The notes beneath the pieces are model-generated. The model saw nothing but the letters and a program-made list of their open reading frames with translations, searched no databases and was not told the origin of the DNA. Shown here one piece after another: positions 2,159 through 32,204 of a stretch of DNA of 64,000 nt. The DNA is from Proteiniborus sp. MB09-C3 (GTDB taxonomy: Bacteria; Bacillota; Clostridia; Tissierellales; Proteiniboraceae). The stretch spans positions 3,720,001-3,784,000 of the forward strand of contig NZ_CP127161.1 of NCBI RefSeq assembly GCF_030263895.1, given 5' to 3'. Each line of letters starts with the position of its first letter. Positions within the stretch are counted from its first letter, which is position 1. Made by a program: the position numbers and the translations under genes.

Positions 2159-3337
2159 TTAAAGTATGTTCTCATAAACTATTTTACCATATTTCTCATA
2201 ATTGTCTTTATTTATTTCCCCTATGCCTATCTCTTCTGTTAAATGTATTTTTCCGTCTTTGTCCATAACCATTTCCTTAATATCTTTTCCCTTGCCATAC
2301 CATCTGCTGCTAGGCTCTATACATGCAGGATATTTGAATCCAGCAAATGTAGATAAAGCTAATATACTGGCTCCACCAACTCCACTTTCAGGCATCGTGC
2401 CTCCCCATACCTCAATATTGTGTTTAGAAGCTAAACAATATATCTTTAGGGCTTCGTAGAGCCCACCTACTCTCTGTACTTTAATATTCCAAATTCTAGA
2501 ACCCTTTATCTCTATTGTTTGCTCCGCAATCCTTTCTGATTTTAATGACTCATCTAAGCAAATTGGAGTCTTAATCATTTTACTTAGCTTACAGTGGTCA
2601 AAAATATCATCATGATGAAGAGGCTGTTCGATAAAGGTACAATTATACCTGTCCATTTCTTTAAGAATATTTTCATGCTCCTTTAAATTAAATGAAGCAT
2701 TGGCATCAGGCCATAATATAAAATCATTTCCCACGACAGCTCTTGCAGTTTCCAAAGCCTTTAAGTCCCAGCCTGGTTTTACTTTAACTTTAATTCTTTT
2801 ATACCCTTCTTCTATGTATTCTTTAATCCATTTGGCTAATGTTTCATAGCTATTGTCTTCGGGTATTCCTACTGAAGCACCAGAATAAATATAGGATTCA
2901 TTCCTTAGATATTCTTCTGTAGTGCCTAATTCCTTTAGTTTATTGTATATAAGAGCTTTTAAGGAAATATTGTTTTTTCTTGCAACTAAATCCCAATAAG
3001 CAGTCTCTACTCCTGCTTTAGCAAAATTATTGCCTCTTATGCTATCGTTAATTATACGATTTATATCTTCAATAGATTGAATTTCTTTGCCAATAATTCT
3101 TGGGAGTATCCATTCCTCTAGCATAGCCTTTGCAGAAGAAATTGTCTCCGACGAATAAAAAGGCGCTTCAAAGGGTGCTGATTCTCCATATCCAACTATT
3201 CCATCTGACAATAATTCTATTATTAAAGATTTACGACTATAGCTTACTCCACCACTTATTTGAAATGGAATAGCATAAGGTATGTCAACCTCAACTATTC
3301 TCGCACCATCGATTTTAAATTTTTCATTTATGTCCAA
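2159..3337 (-). CDS. Enolase-superfamily enzyme of the OSBS / N-acylamino acid racemase / muconate cycloisomerase subgroup
   Basis: The ~392-residue protein has the MLE-subgroup layout: N-terminal capping domain, then a barrel with catalytic KxK (IKVKVKPGW), metal ligands in WPDANASF, FIEQPL and LDES, and the second catalytic lysine in NIKVQRVGG. Members include o-succinylbenzoate synthase (MenC), N-acylamino acid racemase and dipeptide epimerases. No other men gene is in the window and the neighbours are a regulator and a DapA-family aldolase, so racemisation or cycloisomerisation in catabolism is as likely as menaquinone synthesis. The open frame starts with a GTG at 3346 that lies inside the ribosome site AGAGGTGA; the TTG at 3337 has correct spacing and is preferred. 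Exact substrate not determinable. Confidence 0.8.
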   Translation of the reverse strand: MDINEKFKIDGARIVEVDIPYAIPFQISGGVSYSRKSLIIELLSDGIVGYGESAPFEAPFYSSETISSAKAMLEEWILPRIIGKEIQSIEDINRIINDSIRGNNFAKAGVETAYWDLVARKNNISLKALIYNKLKELGTTEEYLRNESYIYSGASVGIPEDNSYETLAKWIKEYIEEGYKRIKVKVKPGWDLKALETARAVVGNDFILWPDANASFNLKEHENILKEMDRYNCTFIEQPLHHDDIFDHCKLSKMIKTPICLDESLKSERIAEQTIEIKGSRIWNIKVQRVGGLYEALKIYCLASKHNIEVWGGTMPESGVGGASILALSTFAGFKYPACIEPSSRWYGKGKDIKEMVMDKDGKIHLTEEIGIGEINKDNYEKYGKIVYENIL

Positions 3338-3423
3338 AACTATCACCTCTGTAAGAAATATTGAGACATGTCTTTATATTGTCTTTATTTTATTCTACAC
3401 CATTATTTAATAAAAAGCAATAA

Positions 3424-4145: not shown

Positions 4146-4860
4146 TATCGTCACCTGTCATACAATGCTTTTCATTATATTCTCTTTGCGCTTGAGATTC
4201 TCTTAAATAGTCTGGTACAAGTTCAAAAAAGCTTTCTGTCTTTCCCTCTATAGCTTTTGCCATTGCAAGCTCAGCTACAGAGGAGGCTCTTGCCATATTA
4301 ACACTCCTTGGAGCAAATATAGCCTTTTCTCCTAATGCTTCTGAGAAAGCATCCTTATACACTAGAGTTCCGTCCCCTGCAAATACTATTTTTTCAGGTC
4401 TTTCAATTAATATATCTATAAGCTCTTTAACCTCTAGAACTGTTTGTTCTTTAATTATATGTAGATTCCCACCTGTCCATTTATATATTCCTGTAAATAC
4501 TCTATCTCTCCTGGCATCCATCACAGGAACTATTATTCCTCCACAGTATGGCAAATTAAATGCAAGTGCATCAAGTGTGGATACTCCTACTACCTTTTTG
4601 TTTGTTGCCTGAGCAAGTCCATTTATGGTTGCCACTCCTATCCTTAAACCAGTAAATGAGCCTGGTCCCTTTGCTACTGCAAATATATCTATGTCTTCAG
4701 GCTTTAATCCACAGCTATCAAATGCCTCTTTTATTATTGGCATTATTTTTTGAGAATGAGTTAATTTATGATTAAGAGTATATTCCACCAGTAGTTTATC
4801 ATCGTCCATAATTGCACAGGTTGCAGACATACTAGAGGTATCTATGGCTAAGACTTTCAT
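4138..4860 (-). CDS. tsaB: tRNA threonylcarbamoyladenosine biosynthesis protein TsaB
   Basis: The 240-residue product begins LAIDTSSMSATCAI and contains KGPGSFTGLRIG near residue 70, both typical of TsaB (YeaZ), an inactive ASKHA-fold partner of TsaD. The TsaB-TsaD-TsaE complex moves threonylcarbamoyl onto A37 of ANN-decoding tRNAs in the cytosol. The ATG follows AAGGAG. It sits between tsaE (34 bp upstream) and rimI (overlapping); tsaD is not in the window. Length fits the family. Confidence 0.93.
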   Translation of the reverse strand: MKVLAIDTSSMSATCAIMDDDKLLVEYTLNHKLTHSQKIMPIIKEAFDSCGLKPEDIDIFAVAKGPGSFTGLRIGVATINGLAQATNKKVVGVSTLDALAFNLPYCGGIIVPVMDARRDRVFTGIYKWTGGNLHIIKEQTVLEVKELIDILIERPEKIVFAGDGTLVYKDAFSEALGEKAIFAPRSVNMARASSVAELAMAKAIEGKTESFFELVPDYLRESQAQREYNEKHCMTGDDNE

Positions 4861-18998: not shown

Positions 18999-19532
18999 TT
19001 AGTATTCTGGTTCAATCAATCCATAATTTCCATCTTTTCTTCTATATACTATATTTACCTCATCTGACTCAGCATTTCTAAATACATAAAAAGCATGTCT
19101 AAGTAATTCCATTTGCAGCACTGCTTCCTCAGCATCCATAGGCTTCATTGCAAATCTCTTTGTTCTTACTATACTAGCCTCTTTTCCATTTTCCCCTGCT
19201 GGAAGTGCCTGAACGTTTTCAAATCTAATAGTTTCAAGTCCCTTATTTTTCTTTTGAAGCTTTGTCTTATGCTTTCTTACTTGTCTTTCTAAAACATCAA
19301 CAACCCTGTCTATTGATTGATACATGTCATCAGTAGACTCTTCTGCCCTAATAATAGCACCTGAAAAAGGAATTGTAACTTCAATAATCTGCCTATTCTT
19401 CTCAACACTTAGCGTAATGTAAACTGGAACGTCTTCATAAAAATACTTATCTAGCTTACCCATCTTTTTTTCTATTACATCTCTTAAAGCATCTGTTACC
19501 ACCATGTTTTTGCCACTGATAGTAATTTTCAT
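18999..19532 (-). CDS. hpf: Ribosome hibernation promoting factor, long form
   Basis: 177 residues: an N-terminal S30AE domain (MKITISGKNMVVTDALRDVI, KLDKYF, TIPFSGAIIRAEESTDDMY) and a C-terminal dimerisation domain (VRTKRFAMKPMDAEEAVLQM, FRNAESDEVNIVYRRKDGNY). Long HPF joins two ribosomes into inactive 100S dimers in stationary phase. The ATG at 19532 lies nine bases after GAGGAG; the frame start at 19541 (a TTG touching that site) is unlikely. hpf-secA-prfB next to fliT matches Bacillus yvyD-secA-prfB. Confidence 0.96.
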   Translation of the reverse strand: MKITISGKNMVVTDALRDVIEKKMGKLDKYFYEDVPVYITLSVEKNRQIIEVTIPFSGAIIRAEESTDDMYQSIDRVVDVLERQVRKHKTKLQKKNKGLETIRFENVQALPAGENGKEASIVRTKRFAMKPMDAEEAVLQMELLRHAFYVFRNAESDEVNIVYRRKDGNYGLIEPEY

Positions 19533-19742
19533 ATACTCCAACTCCTCTCAGTTTAAATATTTAGTTATAAAATCTATATTCAGTTGTTAAATATAAAATT
19601 CTACATAAAATTTATTAATCCTTTTTATATTCTAAATTTTCTAAAATATTATGTAGTTTTAAAATTTATTGATTATATTTATATAATACCCATTGTCCAT
19701 GCTAATTAACATTTTTTTAATTAAAACAATTTATCGTCCTAG

Positions 19743-19860
19743 TTAATGTAGCATTAATGTCTTTCGACTTAATGTAGAATCATTAACTCCTGCTCAATTA
19801 AAGCGCCTGTCCATATTTATATATTATAGAAAAACATTAATATATAAAAAAGGTTAATGT
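19743..19860. repeat. Cluster of five TTAATGT heptamers
   Basis: TTAATGT occurs at 19743, 19754, 19769 and 19854 and inverted (ACATTAA) at 19834, within 118 bases of AT-rich non-coding DNA. The first three are 11 and 15 bases apart. They lie beside the DnaA-box cluster. Could be a regulator or iteron-like binding array; chance in AT-rich DNA is not excluded. Confidence 0.45.
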
Positions 19861-19946
19861 AATATGATGTTTTTTTATATGTTTCAACATATTTTCTATT
19901 TATTCGCCTTTTAAACATACTTATGGTAGAATAATTATTCAGTATT

Positions 19947-20080
19947 ATATCCACAGCTATCTTGTTGCTTAAATGTGGATAAATAATATGCTATTTTGTG
20001 GATAATGTGTATAAGTCTGTGGAAAACTGTTCATTTGTACAAATATTGTTGTGTATAACTTGTGAATATTCAGTGGAAAA
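19947..20080. promoter_or_regulatory. Cluster of DnaA-box-like 9-mers
   Basis: Eight 9-mers fit TTATCCACA (or TTWTNCACA) or miss it by one base: ATATCCACA 19947; inverted TGTGGATAA 19974 and 19997; TGTGTATAA 20006 and 20050; TGTGGAAAA 20018; TGTGAATAT 20061; AGTGGAAAA 20072. Seven share one orientation. A perfect palindrome ATTTGTACAAAT is at 20033-20044. The intergenic region 19533-20348 contains this cluster, the TTAATGT array and no gene that I can support. Confidence 0.7.
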
Positions 20081-20348
20081 CTCAATATTCCATAATTTAC
20101 TACTATATATTAATAATTTTGCCAATTTAATATACAATTATTCTTATTCTTTTTCTTGTGGTCAAACTAATATATATACACTATATATTGAATTGACTAA
20201 ATTCATCTGATGTACGAGTTTATTAAAGGCAGTTTCTCAAATTCATATTACATAAAGTATAGACATTTATTGCTGATAATAATAAAATATATGTAAGCAA
20301 GGATCAATAATAGCAACTACAAATACTGTTTTGATAAGGATGATTTCT

Positions 20349-21230
20349 TTGAAAATAGGAATGAGAACAATTAAAACATCAATCGCTGTAACAATAGGCA
20401 TCACTTTAGCTTATATACTTAAGCTTAACTCTCCATTTTTTGTAGGGGTTGCAGCAATAATAGCCATGCAGGGTAACTTGGTAGATTCATATAGAATGGG
20501 AAGAGACAGAGTTCTAGGAACCATTTTAGGTGCAGCAGTTGGCCTTCTAGGCTCTTTTATATCCATAGGAAATCCTATAATTATCGGTATAGGTATAATA
20601 ATAATAATATCTCTTTGTAACAAGCTGGGATGGAGTAAGTCCATATCTATAGCCACAATAGTATTTATTTCAATAATCATAAGTGTGGAAAAAGGTCAGG
20701 AGCTATCTTATAGCTTAAATCGAATTCTAGATACTATAGTAGGAATTATTGTAGCTGTTATAGTTAACTTTGTAATCTCCCCTCCCTTAGCTAAGGACAA
20801 AATATATTCAGAATCCTTAAATATAATTGATGAATTTTCACGAGCTTTAAAAGCAATCATCATAAAAGAAGAACCTGGAAAGAAAAAAGAACATCTAGCA
20901 GATATCGAAGACAAGCTTGATGTAATAGATAAGGAGTATCCAATTTTAATAAAGGAAATAAATATTAAGCTTTATAAGAGAAGTTTAGGTGATGTGAACC
21001 TTCAGCATTCAAGAATCCTGCTAAAGAAACTTTACTACAATTTAAACTTATTAGCAGAAATGGGATCAGGTTTTAATTTAAGCCCCGAAAATTCTAGTAT
21101 TGTAAATAATAAGTACAACTTAAATATAGTAGGAACTGATAACTTGACTGATTTAGATATTGTGTATAATTATCACTTGAAAACCTCACTAGGCGTGCTT
21201 CAAGAGCTTAGGGGTATGTTTAAACTATAG
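20349..21230 (+). CDS. Aromatic acid exporter (ArAE_1/FUSC-like) family membrane protein
   Basis: About 293 residues. The N-terminal half is hydrophobic with about six membrane segments and family blocks IKTSIAVTIGITLAYIL, FVGVAAIIAMQ and RVLGTILGAAVGLLGS, the signature of DUF939/ArAE_1 proteins; RILDTIVGIIVAVIVNFVISPP ends the membrane part. The C-terminal half is a charged helical cytosolic domain. Possibly exports aromatic or other small acids; the substrate is unknown. The frame opens at 20331, but AAGGATGA there is the ribosome site for the TTG at 20349. It is one of the few plus-strand genes and converges on fliT. Confidence 0.75.
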   Translation: MKIGMRTIKTSIAVTIGITLAYILKLNSPFFVGVAAIIAMQGNLVDSYRMGRDRVLGTILGAAVGLLGSFISIGNPIIIGIGIIIIISLCNKLGWSKSISIATIVFISIIISVEKGQELSYSLNRILDTIVGIIVAVIVNFVISPPLAKDKIYSESLNIIDEFSRALKAIIIKEEPGKKKEHLADIEDKLDVIDKEYPILIKEINIKLYKRSLGDVNLQHSRILLKKLYYNLNLLAEMGSGFNLSPENSSIVNNKYNLNIVGTDNLTDLDIVYNYHLKTSLGVLQELRGMFKL

Positions 21231-27893: not shown

Positions 27894-28271
27894 CTACACT
27901 TCGCTGCGCCTAATAACTTCAAATCCATTCATAGCTTCCAGCATGACGTAGTATGAGCGTAGGCCACATTCTGCTGCTTTTTCAATAGTAATTCTGTCCA
28001 TGTTGAATATTCCTGAAACGTCTCCTTTTTTGAGTAACGAAATAATCTCATCGTCAAACTCTTCACCATAAGGACTGTAGCCATAGGGCCCATCCTCAGT
28101 CAGCATATGGGATAAATCTCCACTGGCAATAAACACTGCATCAGTATTGCTGTCTTCTACTGCCTTTTTTATACACATACCAAATCTGTACAGCTGCATT
28201 TTAGGCAGCATACCATTAACTACCCTAATTAAATGTTTGCGAAATGATAATATATGTAATACTATTATCAT
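27894..28271 (-). pseudogene. Remnant of a Memo/LigB-like domain of the AmmeMemoRadiSam system
   Basis: The 125 codons contain VFIASGDLSHMLTEDGPYGYSPYGEEFDDEI, here read as SGDLSHMLTED and GPYGYSP..EFDD, the C-terminal part of the class III extradiol-dioxygenase-like Memo domain, followed by AAECGLRSYYVMLEAMNG. Intact proteins continue with a conserved segment and often an AMMECR1 domain, and have about 130 more residues at the N-terminus including metal histidines. Here both ends are missing and the first ~25 codons look unrelated, so this is most likely a decayed gene. It begins 16 bases from a plus-strand methyltransferase gene. Confidence 0.65.
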
Positions 28272-28295
28272 AGAACATTTTAAGGGGTGAACTTT

Positions 28296-29033
28296 ATGGG
28301 CTTTTATGAAGAGCTTAGCAGATACTATGATATTATATTTCCAGCTACATCAGATAAGATTGACTTCATAGAAAAAGCAGCTGATAATGGGAAATACGTT
28401 CTTGACATTGCCTGTGGAACAGGAAACTATGCAATTGAGCTAGCTAAGAAAGGATATATAGTAGACGGAATAGATCTTGATGCTGCGATGATTGAAGCTG
28501 GGAAGAAGAAAGCAAAGAAAGAAGATTTAGATATTAATCTTGTTCAAGGAGATATGAAAGACATTAATGCCTTATTTTCTGAGAAAAAATATGATTTAGC
28601 ATATTGTATAGGAAATTCATTAGTCCATTTAGACAATGAAGCAGAGATTCAGCACATGATTGATGATATAGGTAAAATCATAGATAATGGCGGAAAACTG
28701 CTCATTCAAATAATTAATTATGACAGAATATTAGATTTTGATATAGATCATTTGCCTACAATAAGCAAAAAAGAATTAGGGGTAGAATTTGTCAGAAATT
28801 ATATCCTTGATAGAGAATCTAGAAAAATATTGTTTAATACTGAAATACATATATCTAATGAAACAGGACGACAGAAATATGAGAACTCTGTAGCTTTACT
28901 TCCTTTAAGGAAAGAAGCTTTAGTTAATATAGTGAAGAAGGCTGGATTCAATAATATTAAGGTTTACGGTGGATTTAATGAAGAAGAGTATACAGAAAAT
29001 TCTTTTGCTACTGTATTAATAGCTGAGAAATAA
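28296..29033 (+). CDS. Class I SAM-dependent methyltransferase
   Basis: 245 residues with motif I VLDIACGTGNYAIELAKKG, motif II acidic DGIDLD and the post-motif LVQGDMKDI, a standard Rossmann-fold methyltransferase of the Methyltransf_25 group. The ATG at 28296 follows AAGGGG by eight bases; the GTG at 28287 is inside that site. It stands alone on the plus strand with its own terminator. Substrate unknown; the sequence has no extra domain that would point to one. Confidence 0.85.
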   Translation: MGFYEELSRYYDIIFPATSDKIDFIEKAADNGKYVLDIACGTGNYAIELAKKGYIVDGIDLDAAMIEAGKKKAKKEDLDINLVQGDMKDINALFSEKKYDLAYCIGNSLVHLDNEAEIQHMIDDIGKIIDNGGKLLIQIINYDRILDFDIDHLPTISKKELGVEFVRNYILDRESRKILFNTEIHISNETGRQKYENSVALLPLRKEALVNIVKKAGFNNIKVYGGFNEEEYTENSFATVLIAEK

Positions 29034-29111
29034 TAAGAACAATGAGCTTTAAAATATGGTTTATGTCTCAAAATTATTTAATAATTACCGATATAACGAA
29101 TAATATTTTTC

Positions 29112-29150
29112 AAAAAACAGAAAACTCTAATAAGAGGCTTTCTGTTTTTT
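29112..29150 (+). terminator. Intrinsic terminator behind the methyltransferase gene
   Basis: AAAAAACAGAAA, then CTCT AATA AGAG, then TTTCTGTTTTTT: a symmetric stem with T-run that can work on both strands. Confidence 0.8.
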
Positions 29151-29283
29151 GTCTATGTTCATTTTCAAAAATCAATATGTCTTTTAGCTTTTTATGAACC
29201 TCTATCATCGTCTTACGTTTCATTTTGTAATCTTTTGCAATTATGATATAATGAGTTAACTATTAATTCGGAAGGGTAATTTT

Positions 29284-30291
29284 ATGATTATTGACTATTC
29301 CTACACTAAAAGAAAAATCGATAATATTTCTGGACATATATTTAAAGGGAGAAATTATAGATGTAATTACGTCAGATACAAATCTCTATATAGAAACTGT
29401 TCCCCTGGAACTGAAAATGTTGAACTATATTTTTTTGAACCTAAAAAAGAGGTTCGAGCTTCTGCCTTAATTCTTCACGGGTTAGGCAGCAAGAACATAA
29501 AATATCTTTTATGGCTTGGTCCTCACTTAGCTAGTGCTGGTGTAAGCACTAGTGTATTAATATTGCCTGGTAATTATACTAGAGTGGAAAACAACTCTAT
29601 TAGTGGCCGTAGCTATCTTTATCCTGATATTAATACAATGTACCAATTTTGGGAGCATGGAGTAATAGATACCCTTAGTACTATTGATTTATTAGAACAA
29701 TTAAATTCTTGGAACAAAAATAACATTATTGCTGGATATTGTTTAGGTGGTATGATATCCACAATTGTCGGTGCCATAGATAATAGAATTAACCATTTAT
29801 TATTTATGACAACAGGAGGTCATATACCTCGTATTTTACATCAATCACCTGCTACTGTGTTTGCAAGAAAAATGTTTGAAAAAGGCTATGGTACGGATTA
29901 TCATTTAAAGGACGAAAAAATACTTTATGATATTTATGAAGAGCAATTTCCAGAAATAAAGAAAATGTCTTTTGAAGATATAGTATCTAGTGAATATATC
30001 CATCCTTTATTTAAAATAGATCCTATTTCCTATGCTCATTTATTAGACATGAAAAAGGTAACATTTATTGATGCATACTTTGATTCTACCTTACCTGTGC
30101 AATCACGCAAGATACTCTATAATGAAATGTCTGAGGCAAATACTAAGATATTACCCATAAGTCATGTGAATTGGCTTCCTTTTGGATATTTTTTAGCTAA
30201 ATATATACTCCATAAGCTAAACTTCAATTCTAAGGAAGCAAAAAAAGCTCTATTGATCAAAGAAATAATACGAAATCCATTAGAAAAATAA
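29284..30291 (+). CDS. Alpha/beta hydrolase with cysteine in the nucleophile position
   Basis: 335 residues. ALILHGLGSKN gives the oxyanion-hole HG, GYCLGG (near residue 160) is the nucleophile elbow with cysteine instead of serine, as in PHA synthase and dienelactone hydrolase types, and DAYFDSTLPV and SHVNWLP supply acid and histidine. No membrane segment is seen. GGAAGG precedes the ATG. It is followed 17 bases later by a second alpha/beta hydrolase, so both probably act on the same kind of ester. Substrate unknown. Confidence 0.75.
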   Translation: MIIDYSYTKRKIDNISGHIFKGRNYRCNYVRYKSLYRNCSPGTENVELYFFEPKKEVRASALILHGLGSKNIKYLLWLGPHLASAGVSTSVLILPGNYTRVENNSISGRSYLYPDINTMYQFWEHGVIDTLSTIDLLEQLNSWNKNNIIAGYCLGGMISTIVGAIDNRINHLLFMTTGGHIPRILHQSPATVFARKMFEKGYGTDYHLKDEKILYDIYEEQFPEIKKMSFEDIVSSEYIHPLFKIDPISYAHLLDMKKVTFIDAYFDSTLPVQSRKILYNEMSEANTKILPISHVNWLPFGYFLAKYILHKLNFNSKEAKKALLIKEIIRNPLEK

Positions 30292-30308
30292 ACTATGGCA
30301 GGTCATTT

Positions 30309-31286
30309 ATGGATAAATTAAAAGAAAAATTTAGAACTTCTTTTTTTATAGTAAATAAGCTATATTTAGTACTAATATTTATTGTTCTTGCCGTAGAAAA
30401 TCTAACCTTAGGATTCTATTATTTCCTCATATCTATTTTTATTTATACCTGGAAAATATTAAATTCAAGGATTCCTATAAATGTAAGTAAGAAACTTGAA
30501 CCCAAAACATTTATCTATAAAAAAACTAAAAATAAAGACCTTAAATTAGATATTTGGCTTCCATCAAAAAATAAAACAACCACTCCTTTAGTGTTTTTTT
30601 GCCATGGTGGAGGATGGATTTCTGGGTCTAGAAATCAGCCTAATAATGTTTCTTGGTGTAAATATCTTGCAGCAAAGGGCTTTGCTGTTGCTAGCATTGA
30701 CTACAGGTATGGCTATAGAAATACTATGGATGATATCCTTTTAGATTATAGAGATGCATTAAATTATGTAATAAAAAACAGTAAAAGACTGTCTGTTAAC
30801 AAGGATAATATAGTACTAATGGGATTATCTGCAGGCGGTCATCTTTCTTTATTGTATTCTACTTATCATACATATAATAAAAATAAAGAATCAATGTCTG
30901 GCATAAAAGGGGTAGTAGCTTACTATGCTCCTTCTGATATAAATGACATCTTTGTTTCTGAAAACAAGTCTATATTTGCAAGGTTTGCGACTAGTCAAAC
31001 ATTAAAGGGAATTGCAGCTCCAAAAGAAGAAATATTTAATTATTATTCTCCCATCACATGGATTAGTGAAAACATGATTCCCTGTTTAATAGTTCATGGA
31101 AAACTAGACACTACTGTGCCATTTAAATCTTCTGTAAAATTTGTTTCAAAATTAAAAGAATATAATATCAAGCATACTTTTATGGTTCATAAAAAAGGTG
31201 GACATTCCTTTGATACTAAGCTTAAGGACATGACCACCGTAAATATATTGGAGAAAACAGCTAGGTTTATTAGAAAGGTTATGTAA
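30309..31286 (+). CDS. Membrane-anchored alpha/beta hydrolase (esterase/lipase, HSL/BD-FAE-like)
   Basis: 325 residues: one or two hydrophobic segments near 12-50 (LVLIFIVLAVENLTLGFYYF), then a catalytic domain with HGGGWISGSR oxyanion motif, GLSAGGHLSLLY nucleophile elbow, aspartate in GKLDTTVPF and histidine in KKGGHSFD. This is the esterase/lipase COG0657 pattern. Second gene of a two-gene plus-strand operon. Its stop is directly followed, in another frame, by the remains of a HEPN gene. Confidence 0.85.
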   Translation: MDKLKEKFRTSFFIVNKLYLVLIFIVLAVENLTLGFYYFLISIFIYTWKILNSRIPINVSKKLEPKTFIYKKTKNKDLKLDIWLPSKNKTTTPLVFFCHGGGWISGSRNQPNNVSWCKYLAAKGFAVASIDYRYGYRNTMDDILLDYRDALNYVIKNSKRLSVNKDNIVLMGLSAGGHLSLLYSTYHTYNKNKESMSGIKGVVAYYAPSDINDIFVSENKSIFARFATSQTLKGIAAPKEEIFNYYSPITWISENMIPCLIVHGKLDTTVPFKSSVKFVSKLKEYNIKHTFMVHKKGGHSFDTKLKDMTTVNILEKTARFIRKVM

Positions 31287-31471
31287 AAAAAGCTACAGAA
31301 TTTAATAATGATTTTAAGGGACTTCTAAAAGACTGCGCCTTTGTAAATGCGTTTTATATTGAAACAAGATATCCGACAGAAGATCCTCTTGCAGTTGAAA
31401 AGGAAGAGGTTCTAATGTGTTTTGAAATTACAGAGAATATAATAGATTTTATTGATGGACTCATAAAATGA
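31286..31471 (+). pseudogene. 3' remnant of a HEPN-domain gene
   Basis: About 61 codons without a start read LKDCAFVNAFYIETRYPTED followed by an alternation of E, A-type helix residues to a TGA at 31469. The block YIETRYP(x)DP is a hallmark of the HEPN domain C-terminal half. A stop in frame just upstream (TAG at 31271) and the end of the hydrolase gene show that the 5' part was lost. Confidence 0.65.
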
Positions 31472-31472
31472 G

Positions 31473-31527
31473 ATTAGATGGACAGGTTCCTTGGCTTTTG
31501 CAAGATTAAGAAATCTGTCCATCTAAT
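31473..31527. repeat. 13 bp inverted repeat
   Basis: ATTAGATGGACAG (31473-31485) and CTGTCCATCTAAT (31515-31527) pair perfectly across a 29-base loop, between the HEPN remnant and the transposase remnant. Could be a terminator for the plus-strand genes or an end of a lost mobile element. Confidence 0.55.
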
Positions 31528-31531
31528 TATA

Positions 31532-31679
31532 TTACTTAATTTGCTCAAACCTCTTAACCATTTTCCCATCGACTTCAAGCTGTTCAGTTAATTGGGAGAA
31601 TGAAGGTTTCTACCCATCTTCTAGCTTCAAAAATTAACTGCCTAAAGGACTTTGGAAATTGAATTTTACTTTCACAATA
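31532..31679 (-). pseudogene. Frameshifted C-terminal fragment of a DDE transposase
   Basis: Minus-strand translation gives FPKSFRQLIFEARRWVET in one frame and, after a one-base shift, SFSQLTEQLEVDGKMVKRFEQ in the next, ending at a TAA (31532-31534). An R-R-x-V/I-E-T-x-F-S-Q-L motif is typical of the catalytic glutamate region of DDE transposases (IS4/IS5/IS982-like). No inverted terminal repeats for the element are evident. Fragment only. Confidence 0.5.
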
Positions 31680-31742
31680 CTAATGGTGATGATTTCGTGG
31701 TGGCTATCAATGATAGTTAACATAATTGTCAGAGTTTTTTTA

Positions 31743-32204
31743 TTAGTAAGTTTTACTAGCACAACAGGTTAATTTAAGATTACTTAAGCTTTCTGATATG
31801 AGACTACCTAGCGTCCCTAAAAATATCAGTAGCGATTTGTAATTTTTATGTATTCTTTCCTTCTGCCTCATATCAAAAGCAATTATTCCTATGACACCTA
31901 TGAGCTTGTCAGAATCTATTATTGGATATCCGATTGTAGACATTACATCACATTTACCTTTTACACTACAATTCGAACAAGCTTTAATAGAGCCTGGATT
32001 CTCTATATACATTGGCTCTTTATTCTTCTCCACCATTTCAAAGGCACAATTTTCTGGTAGTCTTTCACCTATTTTGTTTTTATTCCTGCCTGTTGCAGCC
32101 ACTCTGTATAACTTTTCATCTACTATAGAAACATCTACATCTAAAACTGCAGCAATTGCATCTGCCACTTTTTGAGTGGTTTTTTGTATTCTTATTAATC
32201 CCAT
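31743..32204 (-). CDS. Stand-alone sensor domain related to PrdR-type sigma-54 activators (truncated)
   Basis: 153 residues. KVADAIAAVLDVDVSIVDE, a CxxCxxxxxC cluster (KACSNCSVKGKCDV) and IGYPIIDSDKLIGVIGIIAFD match the N-terminal input domain of sigma-54-dependent regulators such as PrdR; the AAA+ and HTH domains that follow in those proteins are absent, and the last ~15 residues (LKLTCCASKTY) look unrelated. The ATG at 32204 follows AAAGGAGG. Next to the transposase fragment, so loss of the 3' part by rearrangement is likely. The four cysteines may bind a metal cluster or zinc. It may be a pseudogene. Confidence 0.6.
   Translation of the reverse strand: MGLIRIQKTTQKVADAIAAVLDVDVSIVDEKLYRVAATGRNKNKIGERLPENCAFEMVEKNKEPMYIENPGSIKACSNCSVKGKCDVMSTIGYPIIDSDKLIGVIGIIAFDMRQKERIHKNYKSLLIFLGTLGSLISESLSNLKLTCCASKTY

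Follow-up and report, generated by a model that had tools for sequence, protein, structure and literature searches.

A tight array of predicted DnaA-binding sites, located about 652 kb from dnaA and the replication origin and adjacent to the ribosome hibernation gene hpf, recurs with the same internal spacing in many related bacteria, and is therefore probably a real but undescribed control site for DnaA. We analyzed a 64,000-nucleotide stretch of the Proteiniborus sp. MB09-C3 chromosome ("the window", bases 3,720,001-3,784,000 of a single-contig 3.88-Mb genome). The array lies at positions 19947-20080 of the window, in a non-coding 789-bp gap (19542-20330, 22% GC) whose longest ATG open reading frame is 33 amino acids. 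On one side of the gap is hpf (18999-19541, minus strand; PF02482 and PF16321), the closest named relatives of which are from Thermohalobacter and Anaerosalibacter, followed by a DUF5317 gene, secA and prfB. On the other side is a divergent aromatic-acid exporter gene of the ArAE/FUSC type (20331-21230, plus strand), beyond which are a FlgN/FliT-like gene, fliS and fliD. An earlier note had drawn attention to eight DnaA-box-like 9-mers in these 134 bases, and this observation was confirmed. The same note stated that the genes on both sides run the same way, which is incorrect: they are divergent.

Five of the eight 9-mers fit TTWTNCACA, and all five are on the minus strand. Numbered in the direction of hpf transcription, they are box1 (20050-20058, TTATACACA), box2 (20018-20026, TTTTCCACA), box3 (20006-20014, TTATACACA), box4 (19997-20005, TTATCCACA) and box5 (19974-19982, TTATCCACA). 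Box1 lies 32 bp before box2, box2 lies 12 bp before box3, and boxes 3 and 4 abut; boxes 2 to 4 are referred to here as the triple core. The remaining three 9-mers deviate from the consensus at one position: the inverted box6 (19947-19955, plus strand, ATATCCACA), and two weaker boxes within 20061-20080 on the minus strand, ATATTCACA at 20061 and TTTTCCACT at 20072, so that seven of the eight share one orientation. TTTTCCACT is also kept in two related genomes (G001 and the same-genus genome G002).

The clustering exceeds chance. TTWTNCACA is not over-represented in the window as a whole (11 occurrences against 8.1 expected), but five of the eleven lie within 85 bp. When the gap itself was resampled 20,000 times with a first-order Markov model, the largest cluster in 134 bp was three. 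Genome-wide, direct TTATNCACA pairs within 30 bp occur at only five places, at 417.6 kb, oriC (510.2 kb), 1241.2 kb, 3709.1 kb and the site described here, while the reversed-pattern control gave none. The 417.6-kb site (417611-417650) has two exact TTATCCACA boxes 31 bp apart in a short gap close to a tRNA-like stretch. The 1241.2-kb site (1241183-1241323) is another DnaA-box cluster with an abutting TTATCCACA pair, between the end of a cwlD-like amidase gene and a PAP2-like gene, both read by eye. The 3709.1-kb site (3709132-3709271) lies between the 3' end of tsaD (gcp) and the end of an ABC-F-like gene, the latter read by eye.

The array is not peculiar to one species. Eighty hpf loci from other species were collected, a sample biased toward proteins close to the query. 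In these loci perfect TTATNCACA boxes have a density of 4.5 per kb at -500 to -250 from the hpf start, 0.7-0.9 per kb in the two neighboring bins, and about 0.05 per kb elsewhere in the same 10-kb loci, a difference of roughly 100-fold between the peak and the background. Of the 84 boxes in the peak bin, 71 are on the hpf strand. Thirty-six of 71 loci have at least two perfect boxes within 650 bp, whereas none of 13,578 control windows from the same loci do.

The spacing of the boxes follows a fixed plan. Box2, box3 and box4 start 12 and 9 bp apart, box1 precedes box2 by 30-32 or 41-42 bp (-51 to -53 or -62/-63 from box4, two distances that are one helical turn apart), box5 is found at +23 from box4 (in 17 loci), and an inverted box6 recurs in relatives at about +50 from box4. 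Seventy-five of 132 hpf loci exceeded the 99.9% null score for this arrangement, compared to 4 of 584 real control windows. In an alignment with two same-genus genomes and one same-order genome the whole array appears as one conserved island. A second conserved island at 19686-19710 (minus strand), about 265 bp downstream of the array, is a probable hpf promoter with the sigma-B-like sequence GTTAAT-N13-GGGTAT. GGGTAT with a GTT-type -35 element at a spacing of N13-14 was found in most of the Tissierellales-order loci examined, 56-291 bp before hpf.

The five TTAATGT heptamers at 19743-19860, which the earlier note described as an adjoining array, are real (one is inverted) and locally clustered, since none of 20,000 resamples reached five. 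However, they are not part of the conserved element. They lie in a spacer that is present in this genome and partly in G001 but absent from G002 and from a further genome (G013), although both of the latter keep the array and the promoter. We regard them as a separate, lineage-specific insertion.

To determine where else the arrangement occurs, we searched 199 genomes drawn from the phylum with a pattern for the triple core, allowing up to two mismatches. The pattern matched 102 genomes and the reversed control matched none. These are counts of related genomes, uncorrected for phylogeny, and should not be read as counts of independent events. Of 150 listed matches, 51 lie within 8 kb of hpf (50 of them upstream, and all 51 in hpf orientation), 57 lie 0.07-3.2 kb downstream of tsaD (all opposite to tsaD), and 42 were elsewhere or could not be placed because contigs differ; 27 genomes have both arrays. 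The tsaD arrays share the core and, in part, the -52/-53 outer box. The genome studied here also has a sister array at tsaD, the 3709.1-kb site, but its spacing deviates (11/9/12), whereas the tsaD-side array has the same triple core in most relatives; the triple-core pattern has a single match in this genome, in the hpf-side array, and the genome's own oriC therefore does not carry the core. In a class sample around one genome (G045), 53 of 121 genomes matched, and the loci read there again lie mostly at tsaD/ABC-F or at fliS/hpf. The exceptions include three genomes in which the same 12/9 core occurs twice, about 2 kb apart, flanking dnaA, so the core can also serve at oriC. In these surveys neighboring genes were identified by eye or by tblastn with a few query proteins rather than by full annotation.

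The distance between the array and hpf is not conserved. Over 50 genomes it ranges from 0.1 to 7.9 kb, and in several an amino-acid ABC transporter, in some cases with a cold-shock gene, lies between. In at least one genome (G071) the array stays beside fliD-fliS-fliT while hpf is 340 kb away. A strict linkage to hpf-secA synteny was also rejected, because 8 loci keep the array by hpf although secA is not downstream.

An Rfam scan of the window returned only an FMN riboswitch (RF00050; 6380-6497, minus strand). The raiA structured RNA (RF03072) was found upstream of hpf in the loci of two relatives, Geosporobacter (locus positions 3168-3412) and an Alkaliphilus MAG (4265-4467), but not at the array, and there is none in the window. 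Six Lachnospiraceae-type loci share a LexA-like near-palindrome (such as TTCGAATATGTGTTTTG) about 40-70 bp downstream of the array, and often a TTGACAATATTGTC palindrome between the array and hpf, which may hint at SOS control of this region. Seven near-identical 249-amino-acid ATPase frames (at genome positions 769879, 815636, 1220999, 2659045, 2721161, 2953516 and 3299774) match Bac_DnaA weakly and are probably IstB-type helper ATPases of an insertion sequence. GC skew reverses locally at window positions 28001-32000 (+0.06 against about -0.2 around it), perhaps because of a block of genes on the other strand or acquired DNA.

We favor, with moderate confidence, the explanation that the array is a chromosomal DnaA-box cluster outside oriC that is kept for its own sake in the fliT/comFC-hpf interval of many Bacillota. 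Fixed internal spacing combined with variable distance to the gene points to a DnaA complex whose geometry matters but whose place relative to a promoter does not. In this view DnaA would bind the head-to-tail triple core cooperatively, with helically phased outer boxes extending the complex, and the likely effect would be to hold or modulate DnaA away from oriC and so help time initiation; a secondary effect on hpf transcription is possible. While the boxes, their fixed geometry, their conservation and the sister array at tsaD are established by the sequence data, the occupancy of the array by DnaA, the cooperativity of binding and any effect on initiation are inferred. The DnaA of this genome, encoded at 510.6 kb, has the canonical box-reading motif GGRDHTTVIHA of a standard 9-mer-reading domain IV.

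The closest described systems are the DnaA-box clusters of B. subtilis, above all the gcp(tsaD)/ydiF cluster (PMC4447404; Okumura 2012 as cited in PMC5295017). These also consist of several TTWTNCACA boxes close together outside oriC in a non-coding gap, and the tsaD sister arrays of many relatives correspond in chromosomal site to the strong gcp/ydiF DnaA-binding region. Deletion of the six B. subtilis clusters causes early initiation (PMC5295017), though the clusters are not all linked to one function and their effect is modest unless all six are removed. The hpf-side array differs in its stereotyped six-box plan with 12/9 core spacing, and in its location: neither hpf/yvyD nor fliT is among the top 20 B. 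subtilis sites (PMC4447404), although a matching site is not required of such a cluster. No paper linking DnaA boxes and hpf was found in a search restricted to open-licence literature, which is weak evidence of novelty. The E. coli elements datA, DARS1 and DARS2 are likewise non-coding DnaA-box groups of set geometry outside oriC, kept at characteristic chromosome positions; they need IHF or Fis sites and change the nucleotide state of DnaA, and we claim no sequence kinship with them.

The most serious alternative, which we consider possible but unlikely, is that the array is mainly a transcriptional operator through which bound DnaA would activate or repress hpf, tying ribosome hibernation to the replication state. 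DnaA is a known transcription factor at sda and other B. subtilis genes (PMC4447404), and sda-type promoters also have arrays of boxes upstream of a gene. The constant orientation of the array relative to hpf, its upstream position in 50 of 51 placed cases, its retention with hpf when the upstream neighbor differs, and its retention in the 8 loci without secA downstream would all be explained by such an operator. On the other hand, boxes at a constant place relative to promoter or gene are not observed, whole genes intervene in some lineages, the probable promoter in the window is about 265 bp away, the same core occurs downstream of tsaD, and genomes G071, G031 and G195 weaken a strict operator. 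A structural or segregation site, where DnaA or another protein reading the same 9-mer organizes the chromosome without titrating DnaA or controlling hpf, is less likely still. Two arrays per chromosome are found in 27 genomes, and the arrays tend to lie in the origin-proximal part of the arms (median 0.29 of the half chromosome for hpf arrays and 0.42 for tsaD arrays), but the positions vary widely (0.11-0.77), only 11 and 9 genomes, respectively, could be placed, the genes themselves may explain the tendency, and there is no direct evidence of such a role.

The earlier note proposed either a regulatory DnaA sink or a relic or integrated-replicon origin, and its interpretation is only partly supported. 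The first idea, including the comparison with the Bacillus clusters, is largely borne out, but the second and any link to the TTAATGT repeats are not supported. Many DnaA boxes in AT-rich DNA are indeed a property of origins, but a relic, integrated or secondary origin is very improbable here. Locating dnaA and GC skew, as the note had suggested, placed dnaA, with its own boxes on both sides, 652 kb away, and showed that skew keeps its sign across the site (-0.27 and -0.14 in the 4-kb blocks on either side of position 20000). No replication gene lies beside the array, no DnaA-trio was seen when the sequence was inspected by eye alone, and conservation in place across the phylum is unlike an integrated replicon. 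Chance clustering of AT-rich 9-mers would agree with the near-expected number of boxes in the window, but is refuted by the conservation of spacing across species, and is contradicted by the resampling and the genome-wide pair search.

B. subtilis lacks Hda, datA and DARS, and how such bacteria balance DnaA outside oriC is an open question (PMC13220808). A more speculative reading, which we advance only tentatively, is that many Bacillota carry one or two copies of a stereotyped DnaA nucleoprotein element, at hpf/fliT and at tsaD, that would be a Gram-positive counterpart of datA/DARS acting on DnaA itself, and that the hpf-side copy would also tie initiation to ribosome hibernation. A predicted DnaA array of fixed geometry, kept at the same two places over much of a phylum, is a concrete element that can be deleted, moved and re-spaced, and it makes titration versus active regulation testable in clostridia. 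Its place beside hpf also raises a testable link between replication control and ribosome hibernation.
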